In this document: in pieces, positions 35,821 through 63,908 of the stretch
Layout of the letters: every line of letters starts with the position of its first letter
Numbering within the stretch: the first letter of the stretch is position 1
NCBI GenBank assembly: GCA_947501885.1
Contig: CANMXN010000001.1
Span: forward strand, 1,364,001-1,428,000
Direction of reading: 5' to 3'
Origin: an uncultured Sphingorhabdus sp.
GTDB lineage: Bacteria > Pseudomonadota > Alphaproteobacteria > Sphingomonadales > Sphingomonadaceae
Length of the DNA stretch: 64,000 bases
Program-made: the position numbers and the translations under genes
Notes under the pieces: model-generated
Databases searched by the model: none
Told to the model about the DNA's origin: nothing
Seen by the model: only the letters and a program-made list of their open reading frames with translations

Positions 35821-36022
35821 AGTATAAGGCCCCTAAATAATATCATGCAATTGCAAGCATGTTTCCATTGATCATAATTAATAATTATAACTGAACAGAT
35901 ATTGAACATATTTCGACCAATAGGAAATAGTGGCCGATAAAACACAATAATATTTACCTCCGTAAATATTTCGCAAAACTATCATAAGACTATTTGAAAA
36001 TGTTAAGCAATAAATTTTATTG

Positions 36023-38208: not shown

Positions 38209-39141
38209 ATGAACAATCAATGGCCCGATACAATAACCGCTGGCGAGTGCGAGCAACATGAACCGCTCGTGCGCCGCGTGCTAGCCCCCAATCCATCGCC
38301 CTATACCTATACAGGAACCCAAACTTGGTTGGTCGGCAACAAAGGTGACATCGCGGTCATTGACCCTGGCCCCAATGGCAGCGGTATGAATATAGGCAAC
38401 CCTAAACTCGACCAAAAAGCGCATAAAGACCTTCACGGGGAAGGGCATGTCGATGCAATATTGGCCGCCGTAAGGGATGCTAAAATTACCGCCATTATCT
38501 GCACCCATACGCACCGCGATCATAGCCCCGCCGCTATTCCGTTAAAAGCTGCAACGGGTGCCCCTATCATTGGGTGTGCGCCGCTCATGCTATCCGATGA
38601 TGGCCCGCGCAGCGATAGCGCCTTTGATCCCGATTATGCCCCCGACACAATCTTATCCGATGGCGATACAGTATCGGGCAATGGTTGGACGCTAGAGGCC
38701 ATTGCGACGCCTGGCCACACCAGCAATCATATTTGCTATGCCCTGCAAGAAAGCGGCGCTGTTTTCACGGGCGATCATGTGATGAAATGGTCAACATCCG
38801 TGGTGTCCCCACCCGATGGAAATATGAATGATTATATGAACAGCCTGCAAAAGCTATATGAACGCGACGATAAAGTCTATTATCCAGCGCACGGCCCTGC
38901 CGTTACAAAGCCCCGCCAATTGGTGCGCGGTATGATAGGGCATAGAAAATCGCGTGAACGGCAAATATTAAAAATCCTAGAGACTGGTCCATCCGATATT
39001 CCTTCTATGGTCGAGCAAATGTATAAAGGACTTGATCCGCGCTTAAAAGGGGCGGCTGGAAGATCTGTATTGGCGCATCTTATTGACCTCCAATCACAAG
39101 CTCATGTAACCGAAGAAGGTGAAATTTGGTCACTTACATAG
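38209..39141 (+). CDS. Metallo-beta-lactamase-fold hydrolase
   Basis: This 310-residue protein has the metal-binding HTHRDHSPAAIP (HxHxDH) motif, GHTSNHICY, FTGDHVMKW and a final YPAHGPAV. A winged-helix-like C-terminal domain is suggested by FLKG-type residues (LDPRLKGAAGRSVLAHL). This architecture is that of the LACTB2-like subgroup, hydrolases or nucleases of unknown substrate. It starts with AAGGGACGC before the ATG. It is followed at 75 bases by nadA. Confidence 0.9.
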   Translation: MNNQWPDTITAGECEQHEPLVRRVLAPNPSPYTYTGTQTWLVGNKGDIAVIDPGPNGSGMNIGNPKLDQKAHKDLHGEGHVDAILAAVRDAKITAIICTHTHRDHSPAAIPLKAATGAPIIGCAPLMLSDDGPRSDSAFDPDYAPDTILSDGDTVSGNGWTLEAIATPGHTSNHICYALQESGAVFTGDHVMKWSTSVVSPPDGNMNDYMNSLQKLYERDDKVYYPAHGPAVTKPRQLVRGMIGHRKSRERQILKILETGPSDIPSMVEQMYKGLDPRLKGAAGRSVLAHLIDLQSQAHVTEEGEIWSLT

Positions 39142-40926: not shown

Positions 40927-40963
40927 ATGAGAGAAATAGAACACAAGACGATCATAATAACAC

Positions 40964-40990
40964 CGTCATGCTGAACTTGTTTCAGTATCT
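40964..40990. repeat. REP-like palindromic repeat unit
   Basis: CGTCATGCTGAACTTGTTTC followed by AGTATCT is one unit of the TGCTGAAC/GTTTCAGTA palindrome family; related units occur at 41442-41531 and, degenerate, at 15932-15998. Confidence 0.75.
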
Positions 40991-41044
40991 ATTGATGGCA
41001 TTCATGAGTGGTAAATATGCTCTGTGCGGTAATAGACATCATAT

Positions 41045-41419: not shown

Positions 41420-41441
41420 ATACATTAATCTCATAACACAA

Positions 41442-41531
41442 CGTCATGCTGAACTTGGTTCAGCATCTATTTATGCTAGTATCCGTCCATTCATTATACA
41501 CAAGAGACCCTGAAACAAGTTCAGGGTGACG
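41442..41531. repeat. Pair of REP-like units in inverted orientation
   Basis: A first unit, CGTCATGCTGAACTTGGTTC (41442 onward) with AGCATCT, and a second in opposite orientation, AGACCCTGAAACAAGTTCAG with GGTGACG (41504-41531), flank 35 bases of unrelated sequence. This is the typical paired arrangement of a mobile or folded REP element. Confidence 0.75.
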
Positions 41532-41644
41532 AAGATTGGAGGTTTAGATATTAAAAATGATGGAGACCAAGAACTTGCAGTTATTAAAACCAAGCATCAT
41601 CATTACCGCTTTATCAGATGCCCTCATTACGCTAAACATATGCA

Positions 41645-55434: not shown

Positions 55435-55510
55435 GGGGCCTTAGCTCAGCTGGTAGAGCGCTTCGCTGGCAGCGAAGAGGTCAGGGGTTCGACTCCCCTA
55501 GGCTCCACCA
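55435..55510 (+). tRNA. tRNA-Ala (anticodon GGC)
   Basis: The cloverleaf is intact: acceptor GGGGCCT/AGGCTCC with the alanine-identity G3-U70 pair, D-arm GCTCAGCTGGTAGAGC, anticodon loop CTGGCAG, T-loop GGTTCGACTCC and encoded CCA. It is 76 bases long. Its 3' end is the left boundary of the genomic island, and the serine recombinase gene reads into it from the other strand. Confidence 0.97.
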
Positions 55511-57026
55511 TTCTGCTTTTGAGGTTTGAAAAGTCATCTAAAGCCTTGAAAGGTATAGATATTTTAGGCGTTCGATACCCTGTTTTACGGCTATAGGCCA
55601 AATTGTCCAAAAAGGTCAGTTTTAGCACTGTCCGCTTCTCTTGAAATGTGCCCTTAGCCCATATCTTATGCGGGTTTGCAAGAAATGTCATAGCGCGTTC
55701 GAACATCTCCTCGAAGGGGGTCTGTGATTCACCGTTAGAATCACATTTTTCAGCTAGTTTTAACTTTTTCGACTCTAGCTTTTTCAAATGATCTTCATAA
55801 GTCCCGACAAGCCTATCACTATCTGTGTTCATAATTCGATCCAAAAGCTTCTGTATTTGCTTTTCAAGCTTAATAAGCTCCTGCTTTATTGACTGCACCA
55901 TAGTAATGCCTTGCCTGCCCTGATAGTCCCAGAGGTCTCTGAACATTTTAGAAGCAATGCTGAATAATTGTGTTGTCGGTTCTAATGAAGCAAGAATGGC
56001 TTCAAACTCTTGTTCCATCACATCACGGCGGATGGACTTACCCTTGCTCTCACAATGATTATATCTGCACAGATAATATGGGTGGAGTTTCCCAGTTGAA
56101 CTTTTCGACCAGCAAGCCGTTAAAGGCCGATCACAATCACCGCAGACTACAAAACCGCGTAAAGGGAAATCCTCCTTTACATCGGGGCGTGTTTTGACCA
56201 ATGGCTTGCCAACAAGCCGCTCTTGTATCTTGAGATATGTCTCATAAGAGATAAGCCCTTCATGCTTACCCTTACGCATGGATATATCCCATTCTTGATT
56301 CTCAATAAAACCAGCATACATCGGGCACTTCAATATATCCGTCACACGTTGATAACGAACATCCCCATAGCTATCCCTTGGAAAATGTGGATAGCCCTCT
56401 AAGAAACGTTTTACATCCGCTTGGGTTTGCAATCGTCCCGATGCATAACCTTCCAATGCTTCTTTAACCATGGTTGCTACTGGCTCGCTAGGAGTAATAA
56501 GTTTGCCATATTCAGCTGTCTTTTGATAGACATAGCCAACAGGCGCACGAAACACCCAAAAGCCTTGTTCTAATCTGGCTTTCATCTTTTGAACGGTTTG
56601 GCGTCTATTCTGCAATCGCTCCAATTGACCTTGTGCTGCAAAGACGGTTTCAACAAATTCACCCTCTGGCGTATCTTCAAAGCGAAAGTTTAGACATTCT
56701 GGTAGCGCATTATATTGCGCCAAGGTCTTCTTAAGTTTGAAGTGAAAAATGGTATCACGAGCAAAGCGCTTCAAATCATCAAATATAACAACCATATTCT
56801 CATCAGGATGCTGCGATAAGAAATTTAAAAGCTTTACCATGCCGGGACGCTTCATAAAGTCACCGCCGCCCGACACATCATCAGGAAACACTTCTAAGAC
56901 TTCATAGCCTTTACCTTGCGCATATTGGCGACAACGATGCTCTTGTGAATCTAAACCACTACCATCAATAGTCTGGCGTTTTGATGATACGCGGCAATAA
57001 ATGAGCGCATATTGAACCTTATTCAT
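55446..57026 (-). CDS. Large serine recombinase (site-specific integrase)
   Basis: This protein of about 526 residues has three domains in order. A resolvase-type catalytic domain has the nucleophile serine in YCRVSSKRQ, then KRPGMVKLLNFL and FDDLKRFARD. A recombinase domain covers roughly residues 165-260. A zinc ribbon (VCGDCDRPLTACWS and YLCRYNHCESKG) leads into a coiled-coil C-terminal part. The ATG at 57026 is preferred because AAGGAG is seven bases upstream; the ATG at 57032 is only one base from it. The final 20 or so residues (VEPRGVEPLTSSLPAKRSTS) are the antisense of tRNA-Ala, so the gene crosses the attachment site. It overlaps the small acidic gene upstream by eight bases. Confidence 0.95.
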   Translation of the reverse strand: MNKVQYALIYCRVSSKRQTIDGSGLDSQEHRCRQYAQGKGYEVLEVFPDDVSGGGDFMKRPGMVKLLNFLSQHPDENMVVIFDDLKRFARDTIFHFKLKKTLAQYNALPECLNFRFEDTPEGEFVETVFAAQGQLERLQNRRQTVQKMKARLEQGFWVFRAPVGYVYQKTAEYGKLITPSEPVATMVKEALEGYASGRLQTQADVKRFLEGYPHFPRDSYGDVRYQRVTDILKCPMYAGFIENQEWDISMRKGKHEGLISYETYLKIQERLVGKPLVKTRPDVKEDFPLRGFVVCGDCDRPLTACWSKSSTGKLHPYYLCRYNHCESKGKSIRRDVMEQEFEAILASLEPTTQLFSIASKMFRDLWDYQGRQGITMVQSIKQELIKLEKQIQKLLDRIMNTDSDRLVGTYEDHLKKLESKKLKLAEKCDSNGESQTPFEEMFERAMTFLANPHKIWAKGTFQEKRTVLKLTFLDNLAYSRKTGYRTPKISIPFKALDDFSNLKSRMVEPRGVEPLTSSLPAKRSTS

Positions 57027-57297
57027 GGTCATACTCCTTATGAGCGGTTTTATTATCCGAATCTATCAAATGAAGATTATCTTCATTACATTTTTGAAAC
57101 TCTTGAACCAATCTATCCACAGCTTCCATGCCATAACCCATCATGACGAAAGACTTCATGATATTAAAGAGTGTTTCCAATAGCTCTAATTTCTGTTCTT
57201 CAGATAAATCATCTTCATCATCCAGCATATCCATATAGTCAGAAGCGCATGGCTGCGCTCCATTCTTGGCCGCTTTATTAAATTCATTACCATCCAT
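57019..57297 (-). CDS. Small acidic protein coupled to the serine recombinase
   Basis: This 92-residue acidic protein contains DMLDDEDDLSEEQKLELLETL and the amphipathic helix FNIMKSFVMMGYGMEAVDRLVQEF; the C-terminal third is polar and disordered. The ATG at 57297 stands seven bases after AAGGAG, the same spacing as for the recombinase; an ATG at 57303 is too close. Its stop lies inside the recombinase start region (overlap of eight bases), so translation is coupled. I recognise no family. A role as recombinase partner or directionality factor is an inference from position alone. Confidence 0.75.
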   Translation of the reverse strand: MDGNEFNKAAKNGAQPCASDYMDMLDDEDDLSEEQKLELLETLFNIMKSFVMMGYGMEAVDRLVQEFQKCNEDNLHLIDSDNKTAHKEYDHE

Positions 57298-57628
57298 TTG
57301 CATGCTCCTTTCAATCTGCAAAGGCAGATATATATGAGGCATGGTTACCAAAGATATGTTTGAAAATGGAGGTTATGGATAGGAAACATATGTGCCCTAT
57401 CTATGCATTAGCAATCTATGCAATGCGCATTTCTGAAATGCTCTAATAATGTTAGTTTGTTTGAGATGGTCTGAGAATATCAATTATAAAATAATCAGGT
57501 CCAATCTGCCCCCACTGATCACTTGTGTAATCTATGTTACTTAACCGCTATGCCTCACACGAGCGCCAAATGATCACAAATCATGTATAACTTCATTACA
57601 TCATCTCAAAGTTAAGACTTTCTTAATT
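57298..57628. other. AT-rich gap between the recombinase unit and the Fic gene
   Basis: These 331 bases separate the 3' end of the Fic gene from the small acidic gene and should contain the promoter of the recombinase unit on the minus strand. I see no frame with a ribosome binding site and no strong hairpin. Confidence 0.4.
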
Positions 57629-59095
57629 TTACTGTGAAACAAATATTTGGGCATATAGTTCTTCTATAGTTTCCACCTCTACATCCGACAGTGCTTCAAA
57701 CTCTTTCGACCGTGCGCGCTCTGATAATTTCCCTTTACCCTGTTCCAAAAACTTAAATAGCAGATTGAGTATACGATCTGGCATATCAACTATATTCTGA
57801 ACCGCAGTATCAAAGCGGTCATAATTTTCTAGAAATTGAGCCTCTTTCGGTAAATCAATCTCGATAGTTTGCGCCACGCATTCATACAAAAATTCAGCAT
57901 GAGGTGTTGCATCAAAATAGCGATATAAATCTATAGTTTCATTTAGCACTTCGACATTATTCTGTTCAGTGGCTTTCCATTTTATAAATGGCAGAGCCTT
58001 AGCCGAGTGGCTTTCCAACACCTTTCTATATGCACCAATTTGATCTAAAATCGCTGCGGAAACTGGAAATGTAATGCCCGGTGGATTAAACCCTCGCTGT
58101 GCTAAGACATGGTGTATAAGGTAACGGTGCAAGCGTCCATTACCATCTTCAAAAGGATGCACATAGACAAAACCAAAAGCTAGCATCGCAGCGGCGATGA
58201 CTGCATCCAATCCGCTTGAATGCGTGTTGGCGAAATCAATGATTGCCCCCATTAATGGTTCAATATCCTCATGTCTGGAACTGATATGATCAGGTATCGG
58301 TGCGCCGCTATGACGGTCATGCTCACCAACAAAACCGCCTTCAAGTCTATAGCCAAGCTTTACAAAACGTTCATCGCGCATGACAATCTTTTGCAATCTA
58401 TGAAATTCATCATTGCTAAGCGGCTGCTTACCAGCCTCACCAATTGCTTTCCCCCATTGTTGAATACGATTTTGTGGGGGGCGCTCGCCCTCGATTACAT
58501 AGCTGGATTTAGAGTCTTTCAAAAGAAGAAAGGCCGCTGTGCGCGCAAGCACATCTTTGGGTATCTCTGCGATACTCGCTTGCGCTTTGGCCGCAAGGTC
58601 TTGCTCTAAAAACTTTTCTAATTTCTCGCTGCGAAAAGCCATGGGACAAAAATTAGATGTGCCAGGAAGATTATTCAACACACGGTAGCGAGAGAGCCTC
58701 TCGCCTTTAATGGCGAACTGAAGCTTTGTATCTACAACGGGTACATAATTACTAACAGGCGGTTCTGGTAGATCAATTATGTCACCAGTCAGCCATTCAT
58801 ACAGAAACCAGATACGTCTGGCATAAGTCCCTGTTGGTGTAGTTTCAACAATGTCTTTAACGGCTTCAGGGCCAACCGCTTCAAATATTTTCTTAAGTAT
58901 ATATAGATCAAGCCCTTCATATTTGAGAGCAAATACAAGATGCCCCTCAAAGCTTGCTTCTGGTGTATAGCGCACACCCATGATCCGCCATGTATCTTGG
59001 TCAATGGTTTTGTGATGTTGAGCCGTGGCAAACATTTTGTGCGGTAAGGCAATGTCTAGAGCAAGCGCATCAATAAGAGCAGCATAGCCTGCCAA
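57629..59095 (-). CDS. Fic-domain protein (predicted AMP-transferase), abnormal 5' end
   Basis: Fic proteins usually transfer AMP from ATP to target hydroxyls. The active-site loop HPFEDGNGRLHR (His313) is intact, and an inhibitory-helix motif SSYVIEGE (S-x3-E-G) lies about 115 residues before it, the arrangement in which the enzyme restrains itself. The rest matches a long Fic family: PTGTYARRIWFLYEWLTG and LSRYRVLNNLPGTSNFCP. The only usual start is TTG at 59095, without a good ribosome binding site. The frame is open 28 codons further, and ILPEQARLAGYAAL looks like the true family N-terminus. A good AAAGGA precedes an ATC codon at 59155. A one-base change in an A5 run would instead join an ATG at 59183. 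Confidence 0.88.
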   Translation of the reverse strand: MAGYAALIDALALDIALPHKMFATAQHHKTIDQDTWRIMGVRYTPEASFEGHLVFALKYEGLDLYILKKIFEAVGPEAVKDIVETTPTGTYARRIWFLYEWLTGDIIDLPEPPVSNYVPVVDTKLQFAIKGERLSRYRVLNNLPGTSNFCPMAFRSEKLEKFLEQDLAAKAQASIAEIPKDVLARTAAFLLLKDSKSSYVIEGERPPQNRIQQWGKAIGEAGKQPLSNDEFHRLQKIVMRDERFVKLGYRLEGGFVGEHDRHSGAPIPDHISSRHEDIEPLMGAIIDFANTHSSGLDAVIAAAMLAFGFVYVHPFEDGNGRLHRYLIHHVLAQRGFNPPGITFPVSAAILDQIGAYRKVLESHSAKALPFIKWKATEQNNVEVLNETIDLYRYFDATPHAEFLYECVAQTIEIDLPKEAQFLENYDRFDTAVQNIVDMPDRILNLLFKFLEQGKGKLSERARSKEFEALSDVEVETIEELYAQIFVSQ

Positions 59096-59325
59096 GCGGG
59101 CCTGTTCGGGAAGTATATTTTCTCGAAAAACTGTTTTATCTTGTGAAAACTCGATTTTTATATCCTTTAGCCAGAATTATCATTTTTAATATAGTTCGTA
59201 ATTTTTATTGTGTAAAACTCATGAAAAACCAATTTAGCACGTGAATTATCATTTTTAAATGTATTTTTTATGAATTATGTTTTTTGTTATGATTGTCTAA
59301 GGATAGAAATCAAAACCTTTAAATC

Positions 59326-59493
59326 CTATTTTTTGGCCAAACTCATATTTATTATTCTAATATTCGATTGGATTACTGCTTTCTCGGCGGAAGAACCTGC
59401 TGAATGAAACTGGGCTATGAGGTTAACTTTTAGAGCTAATAATTCTTGTTTTGATAATTTGGCTAGCGCGGCCATGTTAAATTGATGTTTCAT
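59326..59493 (-). CDS. Small conserved-looking protein, 55 residues
   Basis: The frame starts at the second of two close ATGs (59493), eight bases after GGGAG, and reads MKHQFNMAALAKLSKQELLA to INMSLAKK. It is a two-helix protein with the LAKLSKQEL start and SAGSSAEKAVIQSNIRII second half, a pattern I have seen in small unnamed proteins of plasmids and islands. No function is known. It lies upstream of the Fic gene on the same strand, with about 170 bases of very AT-rich sequence between. Confidence 0.6.
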   Translation of the reverse strand: MKHQFNMAALAKLSKQELLALKVNLIAQFHSAGSSAEKAVIQSNIRIINMSLAKK

Positions 59494-59815
59494 GTCATTC
59501 TCCCTTGTAGGAAGCCCTCACCATTGCGGCCTTCGATAGGGATGAGAGACAGGCAAGATTAGCCCTGACATCATTCGCAGAATCGGAACAAAGAGGTGAA
59601 GCCTTTAGGCTTGATGTTTTAAGGGATGATATTGACTAGAACCGACCTTCGATAAGGCGCACATGCGCAGGCTTCCAAGAGGCAGATATGACTACGAACG
59701 GCAAAAGGTTGTATTACCTATGACTTGATGTGATAAAGCTTGATTGTATCGATTATTTAACTTAGAGGTTTACTCTATGCTGACGATATAGTCTTGTGGT
59801 AGAATAGGCATTACT
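59494..59815. other. Divergent control region inside the island
   Basis: This 322-base region lies between the minus-strand small gene and the plus-strand HEPN-like gene. It contains two near-copies of CCTTCGATA (59530-59538 and 59645-59653), the second as CCTTCGATAAGG with a short internal stem, and a hairpin AAGCCT-TT-AGGCTT near 59600. No coding frame with a convincing start was found. It probably carries promoters in both directions. Confidence 0.4.
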
Positions 59816-61105
59816 ATGAAAGAAAAAGATGCCCCCCTTCCAACTAGAGATTACGTAAAACAGCAATATAATCAGATACGGCCTTTGATGAAGGTTATAG
59901 GCTTTTTTAATAAAGATATTGCCAAGAAAACGAAAGATTTAGAAGGCCAGTTCGAAAAAATTGAGCAAATGGAAAAAGACCGCTTAGAGTTTGTAGAGCG
60001 ATTTTCTCCAATGGGCTGGACATTATATGATAACATATCAGTTGATATTGTTAGTGAAGTGGTTTCTGAATCAAATGACGAAGAAGCAGAGAAAATCCTG
60101 GCTACCTATCATACCGATCTTGATCATCTAGAACGATTGGGTTATCGATTTAATATCAGTCGTTATGAGGCTTGGAGGGAGCTTTATGAAAGGGCTATAG
60201 AGCGTGCCAACCATAAAGACTTTCTTTCCGCAGTCCCGCTTATTCTCATTATCATCGATGGCATCTGCACAACAAAAACTGGGAAGCACCCATTTTCTGG
60301 GGGCGCAGATGCTCCTGTTTTTGACAGCGAAGTATCAAGACCAGGCGGCATATCTGACGGGCTTGCAATTCTAGGTTCTACTCGGCGCAAACTTGATACA
60401 ACTGAAATATCCAGTCCATATCGTCACGGTATAATCCATGGCCTCAATCCGTCTTTCGGTAATTTACTAGTTATGGCGAAAGCATTTAATCTTCTTCAGG
60501 CAAGTATAGACTATTTTGATCGCCGTGATGACGAGGAAGAAAGACTGGAAAAGGCAGCATCCGAGCAGCGCGAACCACCTTGGTCAGAGGTTGCTGATAC
60601 ATTAATGAAGAATCAGGAGGCGCGACAAAGAATTGATGAGTGGCAACGCCGACCTGAAATATCCAATAGCGTGATAGCATCTTCCGATGACAACAGCGGG
60701 TTGGTTGCCGAGTCGCCTGAGGCAACTGCAGCACAGTATCTCTCTAGCCTTGAGGCCAAAAACTTTGGATCAATAGCTAAGCTCACCATTGATTTTCCTC
60801 TTCGTTCGATCAAATATCGTGCAGGTAAACATCGCGAAGAACTGGGCGAATTAGAAGTTACTGGATGGGAAATTACAGGCATCAGAGATGAAGCTCCAGC
60901 AATAAGCGTTGTTACTATCTATTTAAGAGGAGTATATGATGAGAGTGAGTGGTCGGGTGAACAAACCATGCGTCTAATATACGGAGACTCAGAATATAAG
61001 AGTTTGGTGCGTACCGATTCGAACGGAAGTTGGGCAGTTATGCCAAATTTTATAAATGAATTATGGGCTACAATGATAAGATCAACCAAGGATAATATTG
61101 GTTGA
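59816..61105 (+). CDS. Unrecognised island protein with a HEPN-like RxxxxH motif
   Basis: This 429-residue protein has three parts. Residues 1-65 are helical and partly coiled-coil (DIAKKTKDLEGQFEKIEQME). Residues about 100-235 are a helical domain containing FLSAVPLILIIIDGIC and PYRHGIIHGLN, where R203 and H208 form the Rx4H signature of HEPN ribonucleases. From about 295, AAQYLSSLEAKNFGSIAKLT begins a mixed alpha/beta domain that could be NTF2-like, with GELEVTGWEITG and SVVTIYLRGVYDE strands. I recognise no named family. HEPN domains are frequent in toxins and anti-phage proteins, and the neighbours (Fic, ArdA, HipA) fit that setting; the activity is inference. Confidence 0.65.
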   Translation: MKEKDAPLPTRDYVKQQYNQIRPLMKVIGFFNKDIAKKTKDLEGQFEKIEQMEKDRLEFVERFSPMGWTLYDNISVDIVSEVVSESNDEEAEKILATYHTDLDHLERLGYRFNISRYEAWRELYERAIERANHKDFLSAVPLILIIIDGICTTKTGKHPFSGGADAPVFDSEVSRPGGISDGLAILGSTRRKLDTTEISSPYRHGIIHGLNPSFGNLLVMAKAFNLLQASIDYFDRRDDEEERLEKAASEQREPPWSEVADTLMKNQEARQRIDEWQRRPEISNSVIASSDDNSGLVAESPEATAAQYLSSLEAKNFGSIAKLTIDFPLRSIKYRAGKHREELGELEVTGWEITGIRDEAPAISVVTIYLRGVYDESEWSGEQTMRLIYGDSEYKSLVRTDSNGSWAVMPNFINELWATMIRSTKDNIG

Positions 61106-61532
61106 GAAAATCTCACATACAAATGATAAATATAACAATTCTTAAATTTATTGAAACCATACTCAAAAATCAAATAATCAAAAAAGAATACAAATTGACC
61201 AAATGAACTCTACGCTAGTTGACTTAGGTTGAATTATAAAAATACTTTGAGAATATCGGCATCTACACGGGCTTTCGTGAACCGAACCTGTCTGATGGTC
61301 AGTTTCGGCCATGCGGCTTTGATCCCTGATGCAAGATTTAAGACTTAGGGCTTTGCCCTCAGCGCACTTCGATAAAAATAGACGCTCTCCCGTGGCTCGG
61401 TTTCACCTGCGCCCGCACCGCCCGAGACGCGATTTTTACACTGCCGTTTGCACACCCATTCTCGCCGAAGGGCAGAGTTTCATGAGCAGAGCAAAAGCTC
61501 TCGTTTGAAACTCAAACCCAATGGAGGAAGAA
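61106..61532. other. Long leader of ardA with stem-loops
   Basis: This is 427 bases without a gene. The left 150 bases are AT-rich; the right 180 are GC-richer than their surroundings, starting near 61330. Stems seen are CTCGG/CCGAG around 61395-61430, AGAGC-AAAA-GCTCT near 61497, and GTTTGA-AAC-TCAAAC just before the ardA ribosome binding site. The stems and position suggest a regulated leader, possibly a promoter that works in single-stranded DNA as described for ardA genes of conjugative plasmids; that is inference. Confidence 0.4.
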
Positions 61533-62048
61533 ATGACAGATAATGAAATCAGAATATATGTGGCGTGCTTAGCAGCCTATAATAATGGTATTTTGCATGG
61601 GGCGTGGATCGATGCGAACCAAGATGCTTATGCAATCTATGATGAGGTAAAAGATATGCTCAATGCTTCGCCCATATCAGGCGCAGAGGAATGGGCTATC
61701 CATGACTATGAAGGCTTTGAAGGTTATTCCATATCTGAATATGAGGGTTTTGGTGAAGTTTACAAGATAGCGGCTTTCATTGCCGAACATGGCGCATTGG
61801 GCGGGGAGCTATTATCTTATTATAGTAATGTTGAAGATGCCCAAAAAGCGATAGAAGATCATTATGCAGGGACATATGAAAGCCTATCTGATTTTGCCCG
61901 TGAGATGACCGAGCAAAGCGGGGCATCGATACCTGACAATTTGGCCTATTATATTGATTATGAAGCCATGGCGCGTGACATGGCAATCAGCGATGCCATG
62001 ACCATAGAGACAGGCCATGAGCAAGTGCATGTGTTTTGGGCGCATTGA
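61533..62048 (+). CDS. ardA: Antirestriction protein ArdA
   Basis: ArdA is an acidic DNA mimic that binds type I restriction-modification complexes and protects an incoming element. The 171 residues contain IRIYVACLAAYNNGILHGAWIDA, the ArdA opening, EEWAIHDYEGFEGYSISEYE, and a DNA-mimic body rich in Asp and Glu. GGAGGA lies five bases before the ATG at 61533; an ATG at 61521 overlaps that site and is not used. The companion gene starts two bases after its stop. Confidence 0.95.
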   Translation: MTDNEIRIYVACLAAYNNGILHGAWIDANQDAYAIYDEVKDMLNASPISGAEEWAIHDYEGFEGYSISEYEGFGEVYKIAAFIAEHGALGGELLSYYSNVEDAQKAIEDHYAGTYESLSDFAREMTEQSGASIPDNLAYYIDYEAMARDMAISDAMTIETGHEQVHVFWAH

Positions 62049-62049
62049 T

Positions 62050-62346
62050 ATGAGCAGCGCATCACAAAACTATCACCTCATATGGCAAGATATAGAGATA
62101 GAAGTAACCTATAAGCCGTTAGAGTTTGATATGATCGCTTGGCTAGAGATTAAATCTGTCGTGCCAAAGGCTGCGCCATTGCCAATAACGGAAACAGGTT
62201 ATTTATCCCATTATCATCAGCCTGGCCATATAGAGGCGCAAGGTGGTGATGTGATAGCATTTGTGACTGCATGGTTAGATAAGGAAGCCAGCACACCGCA
62301 GTGGCAAAAATATAGTGAGGCAATCAGACAATATGATCTGTTCTAA
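62050..62346 (+). CDS. ArdA-companion protein, conserved in mobile elements
   Basis: This 98-residue protein contains IEVTYKPLEFDMIAWLEIKS and then the striking APLPITETGYLSHYHQPGHIE and GGDVIAFVTAWLDKEAS. I recall this PITETGY...FVTAWLD pattern in unnamed proteins of alphaproteobacterial plasmids and integrative elements, often near ardA, but know no function. The ATG at 62050 follows the ardA stop by two bases, so they are cotranscribed and probably coupled. Confidence 0.7.
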   Translation: MSSASQNYHLIWQDIEIEVTYKPLEFDMIAWLEIKSVVPKAAPLPITETGYLSHYHQPGHIEAQGGDVIAFVTAWLDKEASTPQWQKYSEAIRQYDLF

Positions 62347-62639
62347 AGCATCGCATTATGACTTGCTTATCGCTCGGTATAATGTGCGTGTGCTTAACCT
62401 ACATCTATCGGCAATCATAGCTAAAGCTACAATGGCGTGCACGTCAATATCAGCCTTAAACATAATCATATGTATAATGATCTAGCACATCTCTATGTGA
62501 TTGATTGCCTGTTAAACCAGCAAAGGGAGTTGTTTGACCTTTAGAAACGCATTTTGTACAAATAGTAGAATGGCAAGGATATATATTCAACTTAAGCTAA
62601 AGTCTAAAACGGCATAGCTTCTTAACACTCCACAGAGCT
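62347..62639. other. Gap between convergent ardA unit and hipA
   Basis: About 290 AT-rich bases separate two convergent transcription units. I found neither a strong terminator nor a gene in it. Confidence 0.4.
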
Positions 62640-63908
62640 TTATTGAGAGTCTTGAAAGCCGTGTAATGCGAAAGGATTGAGAAATTGGCGGCCCCATAAG
62701 AAAGCACGGTCGACTTCGGTCATATTTGCTTCGTCGCAGACGGCAGACCATTGCATCTTAATCACATTAATTTGTGCTTCAATAATTTTTCGCGCTCGAT
62801 TCTCACTCAGCAAGAAATTGGGTGCGGCTTCAAGGCAAATTGTCAATTGGCTTAGTCGCTTATTACCCGTGAGAAGCATAGCTTGCGATGCTTCGCCGCC
62901 CGTGCGTCCTTGCGGGCAGATATCATAGGCAGGGCTCAGGGTAAGACTGCGACCATCCCAGAACGCAGCATGATTACGTGCATGATCATCCGTATTGCCA
63001 GATAGGATATTAAAAACAATTCGGCCAAACAACTCTTCAAGGGTTTTCTTCGGATCAGTGAAGCGGTGGCGGACTAATGTCGCAAACTCTTCATAACTCG
63101 CATAACGCGCTTCAGTTTCATCAAGTGCAAGCATTGTCAGCGCCGAGACAAGGCCACGCCTCATCCAACCGCTTGGTGATTTTTTGCGGTCGAAGCGCTC
63201 AATCAACAGTACATCTTTACCAAGCCCGCGCGTTAGTCTGACAGGTGCAACGTCGAGTCCTGCGTGATGCCCAAGCCGCATCGTAATAAATTCGCTTTTC
63301 ACAACATTATAGAGATCGTTGCTCGCCGAGAATTTGGCGATGTATTTCTTATTATTATCATCGATCAACGCTTTGGGCCTTGCGCCCCCTAGTGCCGTGC
63401 CGTGCTGTAGCGCGAGATCAAGTTCAAGCGAGAGAGGCACACCTTCTTCGACGCGTTGCGCGGATTGCATAAGTTCTTCAAGTGATGCGTTTTGGCGTTG
63501 GCGCGGCACATAATCCGTAGCTGATGTTTGAAAATCTAGCGCTCCAATCCGATCAGAGCCAGATTCTAGCAGATAGGTGAGTTCGTCTAGCTCGGCGCTA
63601 TCGGCATCTTTACCTTTTAGGCCCAACATTCGGTTGATGATAACCCGTCGACCCCATGCATCAGGAGACCCGTCACGAATGGAGCTTGGAAGCTGCATCT
63701 TATCGTGAGTATCTATTGCGCCCACCTTCAAAGGAAGCTCAGGCTCATAGATCGCTATGGCATTGTCTCGCGCCAGATAGCTCTGACCATAGTTGAATGT
63801 TAAGCGACCATCCGCTTGACGCCCTAACCGCCCCGCGACCACAGGATCGGTAGCGTCTGGTAGCCATATCCAAACATAGGCTTCATCATGGCGGCGATTA
63901 GAAGTCAT
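62640..63908 (-). CDS. hipA: HipA-family serine/threonine kinase (type II toxin)
   Basis: This 422-residue protein is of the HipA family, kinases that in E. coli phosphorylate glutamyl-tRNA synthetase and induce dormancy. The N-terminal subdomain has AYVWIWLPDATDPVVAGRLG and YLARDNAIAIYEPELPLK. The HipA_C kinase core shows GGARPKALIDD with YIAKFSAS, LIERFDRK, the catalytic loop GNTDDHARNHAAFW and the metal-binding SPAYDICP. Its start overlaps the stop of the partner gene (ATGA), the usual antitoxin-first order. Target and effect here are unknown. Confidence 0.92.
   Translation of the reverse strand: MTSNRRHDEAYVWIWLPDATDPVVAGRLGRQADGRLTFNYGQSYLARDNAIAIYEPELPLKVGAIDTHDKMQLPSSIRDGSPDAWGRRVIINRMLGLKGKDADSAELDELTYLLESGSDRIGALDFQTSATDYVPRQRQNASLEELMQSAQRVEEGVPLSLELDLALQHGTALGGARPKALIDDNNKKYIAKFSASNDLYNVVKSEFITMRLGHHAGLDVAPVRLTRGLGKDVLLIERFDRKKSPSGWMRRGLVSALTMLALDETEARYASYEEFATLVRHRFTDPKKTLEELFGRIVFNILSGNTDDHARNHAAFWDGRSLTLSPAYDICPQGRTGGEASQAMLLTGNKRLSQLTICLEAAPNFLLSENRARKIIEAQINVIKMQWSAVCDEANMTEVDRAFLWGRQFLNPFALHGFQDSQ

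Follow-up and report, generated by a model that had tools for sequence, protein, structure and literature searches.

A serine recombinase gene that reads out of its island and into the adjoining tRNA gene raises the question of whether integration itself rewrites the C-terminus of the integrase. We addressed this for a 64,000-nucleotide stretch of DNA (the window), for which it had been predicted that the frame enters tRNA-Ala by about 65 bases and that the last 20 or so residues are the tRNA read backwards. The features at this border are as follows.

55435-55510, plus strand: tRNA-Ala(GGC), intact as a tRNA gene and serving as the attachment target (attL) (ARAGORN; synteny with G012 and G035)
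55446-57032, minus strand: large serine integrase of 528 aa with a tRNA-antisense tail, the hybrid form (ORF call, domains, Foldseek)
55446-55505, minus strand: portion of the integrase frame that would be host tRNA, residues 510-528 plus the stop (from the core dinucleotide matching between attL and attR in relatives)
55506-55510, plus strand: attL core at the tRNA 3' end (CCA, N73, edge of nt 72-71), with the probable crossover at positions 5-6 of TGGN(GC/GG) on the integrase strand
55511-55540, minus strand: element side of attL (P' arm), final codons of the integrase body, outer limit approximate (empty-site homology ends at 55512, sister-element homology continues)
57019-57351, minus strand: ORF of 110 aa that shares 14 nt with the start of the integrase gene and has a conserved counterpart in the sister element (no Pfam match above the cut-off)

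The integrase starts with the ATG at 57032, making the ORF slightly longer than first described, and it overlaps tRNA-Ala(GGC) in antisense by 65 nt with its stop inside the tRNA, just as predicted. In two near relatives (G012 and G035), the corresponding site is syntenic with the window as far as base 55512 and diverges from there on, and the border of the element was therefore placed at the tRNA 3' end. With the crossover put at 55505-55506, on the basis of the attachment-site comparison given below, residues 510-528 (EPRGVEPLTSSLPAKRSTS) would be host tRNA in reverse. The small ORF at the integrase start is a possible candidate for a regulator or directionality factor.

The predicted assignment to the serine integrases was borne out by several lines of evidence. 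The protein matched Resolvase (PF00239, 4.6e-24) and Zn_ribbon_recom (PF13408, 1.2e-8), with PF07508 falling just under the cut-off (19.8 versus 21.1 bits). The catalytic Y-x-R-V-S motif was present, its residues Y12, R14, V15, and S16 being invariant among 38 aligned sequences, as were the zinc ribbon cysteines C297, C300, C322, and C327. The sequence matched a solved structure, the catalytic domain of TP901-1 integrase (4.6e-9), and the best Foldseek matches of the structural model (mean pLDDT 80.4, pTM 0.53) were serine integrase complexes (best E 1.7e-20, TM about 0.43). The catalytic and zinc domains, together with the 5-bp motif shift and the identical central dinucleotide described below, place it among the large serine integrases; being a serine recombinase, it falls outside the tyrosine-recombinase families of the Mx8 and SSV integrases.

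Matches to the integrase body were found in 30 of 396 genomes of the order at E 1e-60 and in 24 of 385 genomes of the class at 1e-30. Nine named loci carried an integrase of this family, eight of which we take to be alphaproteobacterial and one of which is labelled Oceanospirillaceae. There were no relatives on plasmids at 1e-40, phage relatives amounted to three records at 29% identity, and viral contigs yielded one locus, with the same tail as L039. We collected 76 distinct integrases whose match reached at least query residue 480, a set that includes partial sequences and almost identical ones from sister species, and counted the 72 (the window's included) that had at least 130 nt beyond the body, dropping L211, L156, L182, and L219, which had too little sequence. 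The end of the gene lay antisense inside a complete tRNA gene in 62 of these 72 and in sense orientation in none; this antisense overlap is more than chance. Among the ten non-overlapping integrases, L149 and L217 were antisense to a tRNA but ran off the end of the fetched stretch. The overlapping integrases entered the tRNA in one phase in 58 cases and in another in four, and 58 of the 62 had no internal stops. Nineteen isotype/anticodon combinations were targeted (Arg 30, Thr 9, Leu 6, Ala 5, Ser 5, Met 4, and Val 3).

A clue to the other form of the enzyme came from a relative without a tRNA (L022/L178), in which the integrase body was fused to a tail ending MARPGGESLNSLFDELADWEHQ...; L178 is a pseudogene with two in-frame TAG codons, and it is the sole natural body-tail fusion seen. 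Peptides of the same kind were found at the far end of other islands. Using a profile HMM built from 11 tails and a threshold of E 0.01, we searched 38 element sequences, comprising the window element, its sister, L178, 15 first-batch islands, and 20 fetched later (the contig-end-cut stretches of G748, with two elements, and of G612 stand outside this set). A tail was matched in 32 of the 38, always on the integrase strand. The matches included 21 of the 27 sequences outside the profile, among which the tails of G040a and G224 were already known, and 15 of the 20 later-fetched sequences, G040b at only 0.008. No tail below E 0.01 was found in the remaining six, among them the later-fetched G801, G560, G559, G524, and G057C4b. 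An opposite-strand match outside element 2, the sister element (L192:9208, E 0.0016), was taken as chance. Native tails were 25 to 79 aa long in the 32 elements, with the consensus M[AV]RxEGExSNxLFxxLxxW[NE]xxLxH, and the three tested against Pfam gave no match above the cut-off. The pattern L-F-x2-L-x2-W-x3-L suits an amphipathic helix, and the native tail was modelled as a helix, with pLDDT under 50.

Each of the 17 first-batch tails had as its next ORF one recognizable by eye as MobC-like, whose start lay anywhere from 19 nt upstream to 109 nt downstream of the tail stop. For the later tails, a match to a profile made from these ORFs lay at most 700 nt away in 12 of 14, with none in G434 and G660 (G529 was unscored). 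The arrangement is extended in the sister element, which sits in the same genome as the window and has an integrase 84% identical to the window's. Its tail (MARLEGETSNALFDALEEWNDHLKDTDLDNFRGPKP at C1:1842935, E 7.8e-17) lies 24,750 nt from the end of its own integrase, the next gene is NikA-like (PF21983)/MobC (PF05713), a relaxase gene (PF03432) follows, and a coupling protein gene is found at L042:9050-10822. In a circle, integrase, mobC, and relaxase would thus be codirectional.

The sister integrase itself (L005/L043) has a tRNA-Arg 3' half without the 5' half. The possibility that this was an attP form was rejected, the tRNA having been split at the anticodon loop by a tyrosine-integrase element of about 39 kb. 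This conjugative-type element splits the tRNA-Arg(CCG) adjoining the sister integrase (L043:1744-3245; L114:1286-1362 and 1501-1540), carries a complete tRNA-Arg(CCG) of its own near its far end, and by its insertion changed the sister integrase tail to ...AFGVSKY. L034 resembles this split-tRNA case, and L139 and L188 may do so. Beyond the tail end of the sister element (L192:12769-16950; C1:1830604, 1833928, and 1839130) there are also repeats of 117 to 126 bp with 96% identity and long ORFs.

We then compared the attachment sites, using TGG, the antisense of the tRNA CCA end, as the reference point. TTCGAA, with at most one mismatch, was found 17 nt from TGG in 30 of 36 attL, where it is the tRNA T-loop, and 22 nt from TGG in 22 of 31 attR (21 of 31 when the attR TGG was picked by nearness alone), compared to 128 of 23609 for all TGG in the elements. 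The difference of 22 versus 17 nt matches what Rutherford et al. (PMC3783163) describe for serine integrases, namely a zinc-domain motif placed 5 bp farther out in attP. The T-loop is probably the recognition motif of the integrase, which would explain the range of tRNAs used.

In all 30 pairs, attL and attR carried the same bases at positions 5-6, numbered from TGG (24 with GC and 6 with GG), with positions 4 and 7 agreeing in 25 and 13 pairs, respectively; full agreement at positions 5-6 was reached in 1 of 200000 shuffles. The original choice of the attR TGG had rested in part on resemblance to attL and on the TTCGAA motif. With distance to the tail as the sole criterion, the choice changed for G040b alone and the dinucleotide was identical in 28 of 29. 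From this we infer that the crossover dinucleotide is positions 5-6, corresponding to acceptor nt 71-72, and most of the attL tRNA would therefore be host, as would the window residues from 510 onward.

In one genome (G005), the flank past the tail end was the same, over 48 nt, as the flank after the intact tRNA at the other end, so that the ends of this element are exact and provide internal evidence for its empty site. Searches for other empty sites were negative: the flank of the sister element was absent from 24 relatives, the virtual empty site of G040 was not found whole in 19 genomes, and the flank of G380 proved to be a repeated gene family, with 12 loci in other genomes lacking an adjacent tRNA-Arg(CCT). 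Among the first guesses at attR, made from tRNA 3' repeats, those at 38738 in G224 and 31105 in G067 were borne out by the tail search, while those at 35824 in G043 (18/18 nt), 40251 in G382, and 38860 in G224, as well as an inverted match in G220 (17/18), were unsupported by it. The matches to the own tRNA 3' end in G043 (L125:15807-15824) and G220 (L155:11426-11455) lie away from the tail end, are too good for chance, and may be the termini of other elements. Tandemly repeated copies of the tRNA 3' end and its flank were also observed downstream of intact tRNAs in G005 (L151:202-451) and G035 (L171:11218-11350), possibly as scars of repeated integration or slippage, and the G005 integrase frame passes through three of them.

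If body and tail are parts of one protein, as in L178, their frames are of particular interest. Relative to TGG, the integrase and the tail had the same phase in 27 of 27 directly scored pairs. Scoring by script had given 29 of 31; of the four pairs then corrected, G361 and G004b were wrong TGG picks at loci without a tRNA (the phases agree by hand), G331 had been scored off the locus end (the phase agrees through L105), and G057a, which compared one site with itself, was left out; the three that agree are additional to the 27. G529, whose tail lacks a TGG, was left unscored. The elements G106, G094, and G057C1 had a shifted phase (phase 2), and they had it at both the integrase and the tail end.

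The tail sequences also varied in the manner of a coding sequence. Information at codon positions 1, 2, and 3 was 0.87, 1.33, and 0.35 bits (15 codons, 26 aligned tails), and pS exceeded pN in 10 of 11 chosen tail pairs. For the sister tail against G220 and G005, pS was 0.96 (saturated) and pN 0.20 and 0.16; the exception was the pair G550-G529, with 0 synonymous and 1 nonsynonymous change. Together with the hybrid ends, the far-end tail, the frame match, and the adjacent MobC, protein-level constraint on the tail can be read from the sequences themselves. Being both constrained and matched in frame, the tail is shown to matter, an argument that does not extend to its loss.

The far-end tail in the integrase frame, and its fusion to the body in L178, place attP within the integrase frame, so that the circular and integrated forms would have different C-termini, as judged from the two ends of the elements and not from a sequenced circle. 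It is thus very probable that integration swaps the conserved tail for host tRNA antisense and that the circle restores the full-length enzyme and its linkage to the mob genes. In the circle, the integrase would read through attP into the conserved C-terminal tail, followed by the MobC-like gene, the expression of a fused protein being presumed. Crossover at acceptor positions 71-72 upon integration at a tRNA would then strand the tail and the mob genes at the island's opposite end and append host tRNA antisense to the integrase, and excision would give back the complete enzyme and reunite its gene with the mob genes. The original prediction that integration rewrites the C-terminus, and that the circle differs, therefore held at the level of the family (tails in 32 of 38 elements, in frame, and the L178 fusion), while for the window copy itself no partner end was found in the 147 kb searched.

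What the exchange does for the element is a more tentative matter. One possibility, to which we give a little less than an even chance, is that the state of the DNA is written into the integrase, in such a way that a helical tail present only in the circle favours integration and is coupled to mob expression, while the tRNA tail turns off or reverses the enzyme. This would be a directionality device located in the att site and common to a widespread family. Most likely, the full-length enzyme of a newly entered circle would integrate, and the hybrid would then be weaker, less stable, or changed in preference. Such a switch may let the enzyme register whether the element is free or inserted, and many relatives are built alike.

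It is also conceivable, if rather unlikely, that the overlap is a passive by-product, with a body that is sufficient by itself, any read-through tail being tolerated, and rewriting that has no consequence. Integrated tails do vary widely: the integrase stop lies inside the tRNA in 32 of 62 cases and beyond it in 30, and the length of the integrated tail is thus not conserved. Furthermore, the tRNA-derived tail was modelled without secondary structure, at low confidence. However, the far-end tail is constrained as a protein and matched in frame to the integrase, unlike a useless tail.

A less probable reading still, which we regard as quite improbable, places the far-end peptide outside the integrase, either as a stand-alone leader of mobC or as a pure DNA constraint of attP. 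MobC does start close by (8 of the 17 first-batch tails overlap it by 4 nt, ATGA), the first tail codons overlap the att motifs, and many tails start with ATG, GTG, or TTG at TGG. Yet third codon positions are much freer, and the tail frame co-varies with that of the integrase, including in the three phase-2 elements, which have no start codon at TGG. In two of these (G106 and G094) an in-frame TTG lies just ahead in the flank, but G057C1 has no ATG, GTG, or TTG in the preceding 15 codons, making an independent tail ORF unlikely, although one may exist in some elements. The fusion of tail and body in L178 also argues against a separate leader. Finally, it is scarcely credible that the tRNA overlap is an annotation artefact and that the real integrase stops earlier, as L106 does just ahead of its tRNA, since the L106 body also has an in-frame stop and 62 of 72 integrases enter the tRNA in a frame continuous with the conserved body.

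In the window's own element, the following cargo was identified.

57629-63908, no strand assigned: cargo region (domain search)
57629-59095, minus strand: Fic protein
61521-62048, plus strand: ArdA antirestriction protein
62640-63908, minus strand: HipA-like protein

Two parts of this cargo are shared with the sister element (59327-59688 at 85.5% and 61258-62421 at 86.9%), and the two elements cease to be homologous at C1:1434977 and 1852682. The right junction that had been expected past 64000 did not turn up, as neither DNA comparison nor the tail profile revealed an attR or other partner end in the 147 kb searched. Within the window, TGG-N19-TTCGAA had two matches, which is chance level (12 of 100 shuffles reach two). 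Synteny with G035 resumes only near C1:1539123 of the window's own genome, and the right end of the window element has therefore probably been lost or rearranged. In addition, its coupling-protein gene is in pieces compared to that of the sister (L045, L042). With no partner end found and a fragmented coupling-protein gene, the window copy looks stranded, and the change of its tail is probably permanent. What the window holds is the left end (attL) of a mobile element that has decayed, that probably belongs among the integrative and mobilizable elements, and whose family uses a large serine integrase for insertion at tRNA acceptor ends. Elsewhere in the window, an intergenic inverted repeat (TGAACTTGTTTCAGC) was seen at 41436-41540 and 40963-40993; it also lies beside tRNA-Ala in several relatives and is probably a common terminator-like repeat.

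The integrases of Mx8 and Mx9 are tyrosine recombinases of phages, whereas the enzyme here is a large serine integrase, its elements are of the mobilizable type and sit in tRNA genes, and its native tail is under constraint and adjoins MobC. In these Myxococcus phages, attP lies within the int coding sequence and integration gives int a new 3' end, which is described as a molecular switch, the changed int being reported as altered in specificity, not inactive (PMC6070905). The archaeal suicidal integrases (SSV, pTN3, and pT26-2) likewise have attP within the integrase gene, which is altered by integration (PMC8371274). Their gene is described as broken into two pieces, Int(N) and Int(C), which sets the catalytic part apart, whereas here the catalytic, recombinase, and zinc domains stay intact and the tail alone is swapped. 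The large serine integrases LI/A118, phiC31, and Bxb1 share with the present family the domain order, the fold, and the 5-bp attP/attB motif shift, but here the tRNA acceptor end is targeted, in many isotypes, and attP is inside the gene.

Mobile elements joining similar functions have also been described. In Tn916, transfer genes become linked to promoters only once the element circularizes (PMC9632896); here the junction would also complete the integrase protein, with joint expression presumed. The serine-integrase IMEs of Firmicutes (Tn4451 and others) combine a serine integrase with mobilization genes (PMC5704250) and are described as disrupting dispensable genes, unlike the tRNA target here. 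Serine-recombinase IMEs of alphaproteobacteria are already known from Mesorhizobium; the accessible portion of that account (PMC8627217) does not mention an altered integrase. The 1.75 million islands mapped by TIGER may well hold elements like the present ones.

A literature search of one open library returned, in the text it makes available, no report of self-rewriting by a serine integrase. The principle of self-editing is known in tyrosine integrases, as the available accounts of Mx8 and the archaeal suicidal enzymes make clear; the novelty appears to lie in the serine family, in targeting across tRNAs, and in the keeping of a constrained tail at the island's opposite end. If true, this would suggest how recognition of one near-universal feature, the T-loop, gives a serine integrase access to a wide range of tRNA genes, and the long-standing question of serine-integrase direction becomes testable with two natural versions of one enzyme. 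Self-editing integrases would thereby extend from the tyrosine to the serine recombinases.
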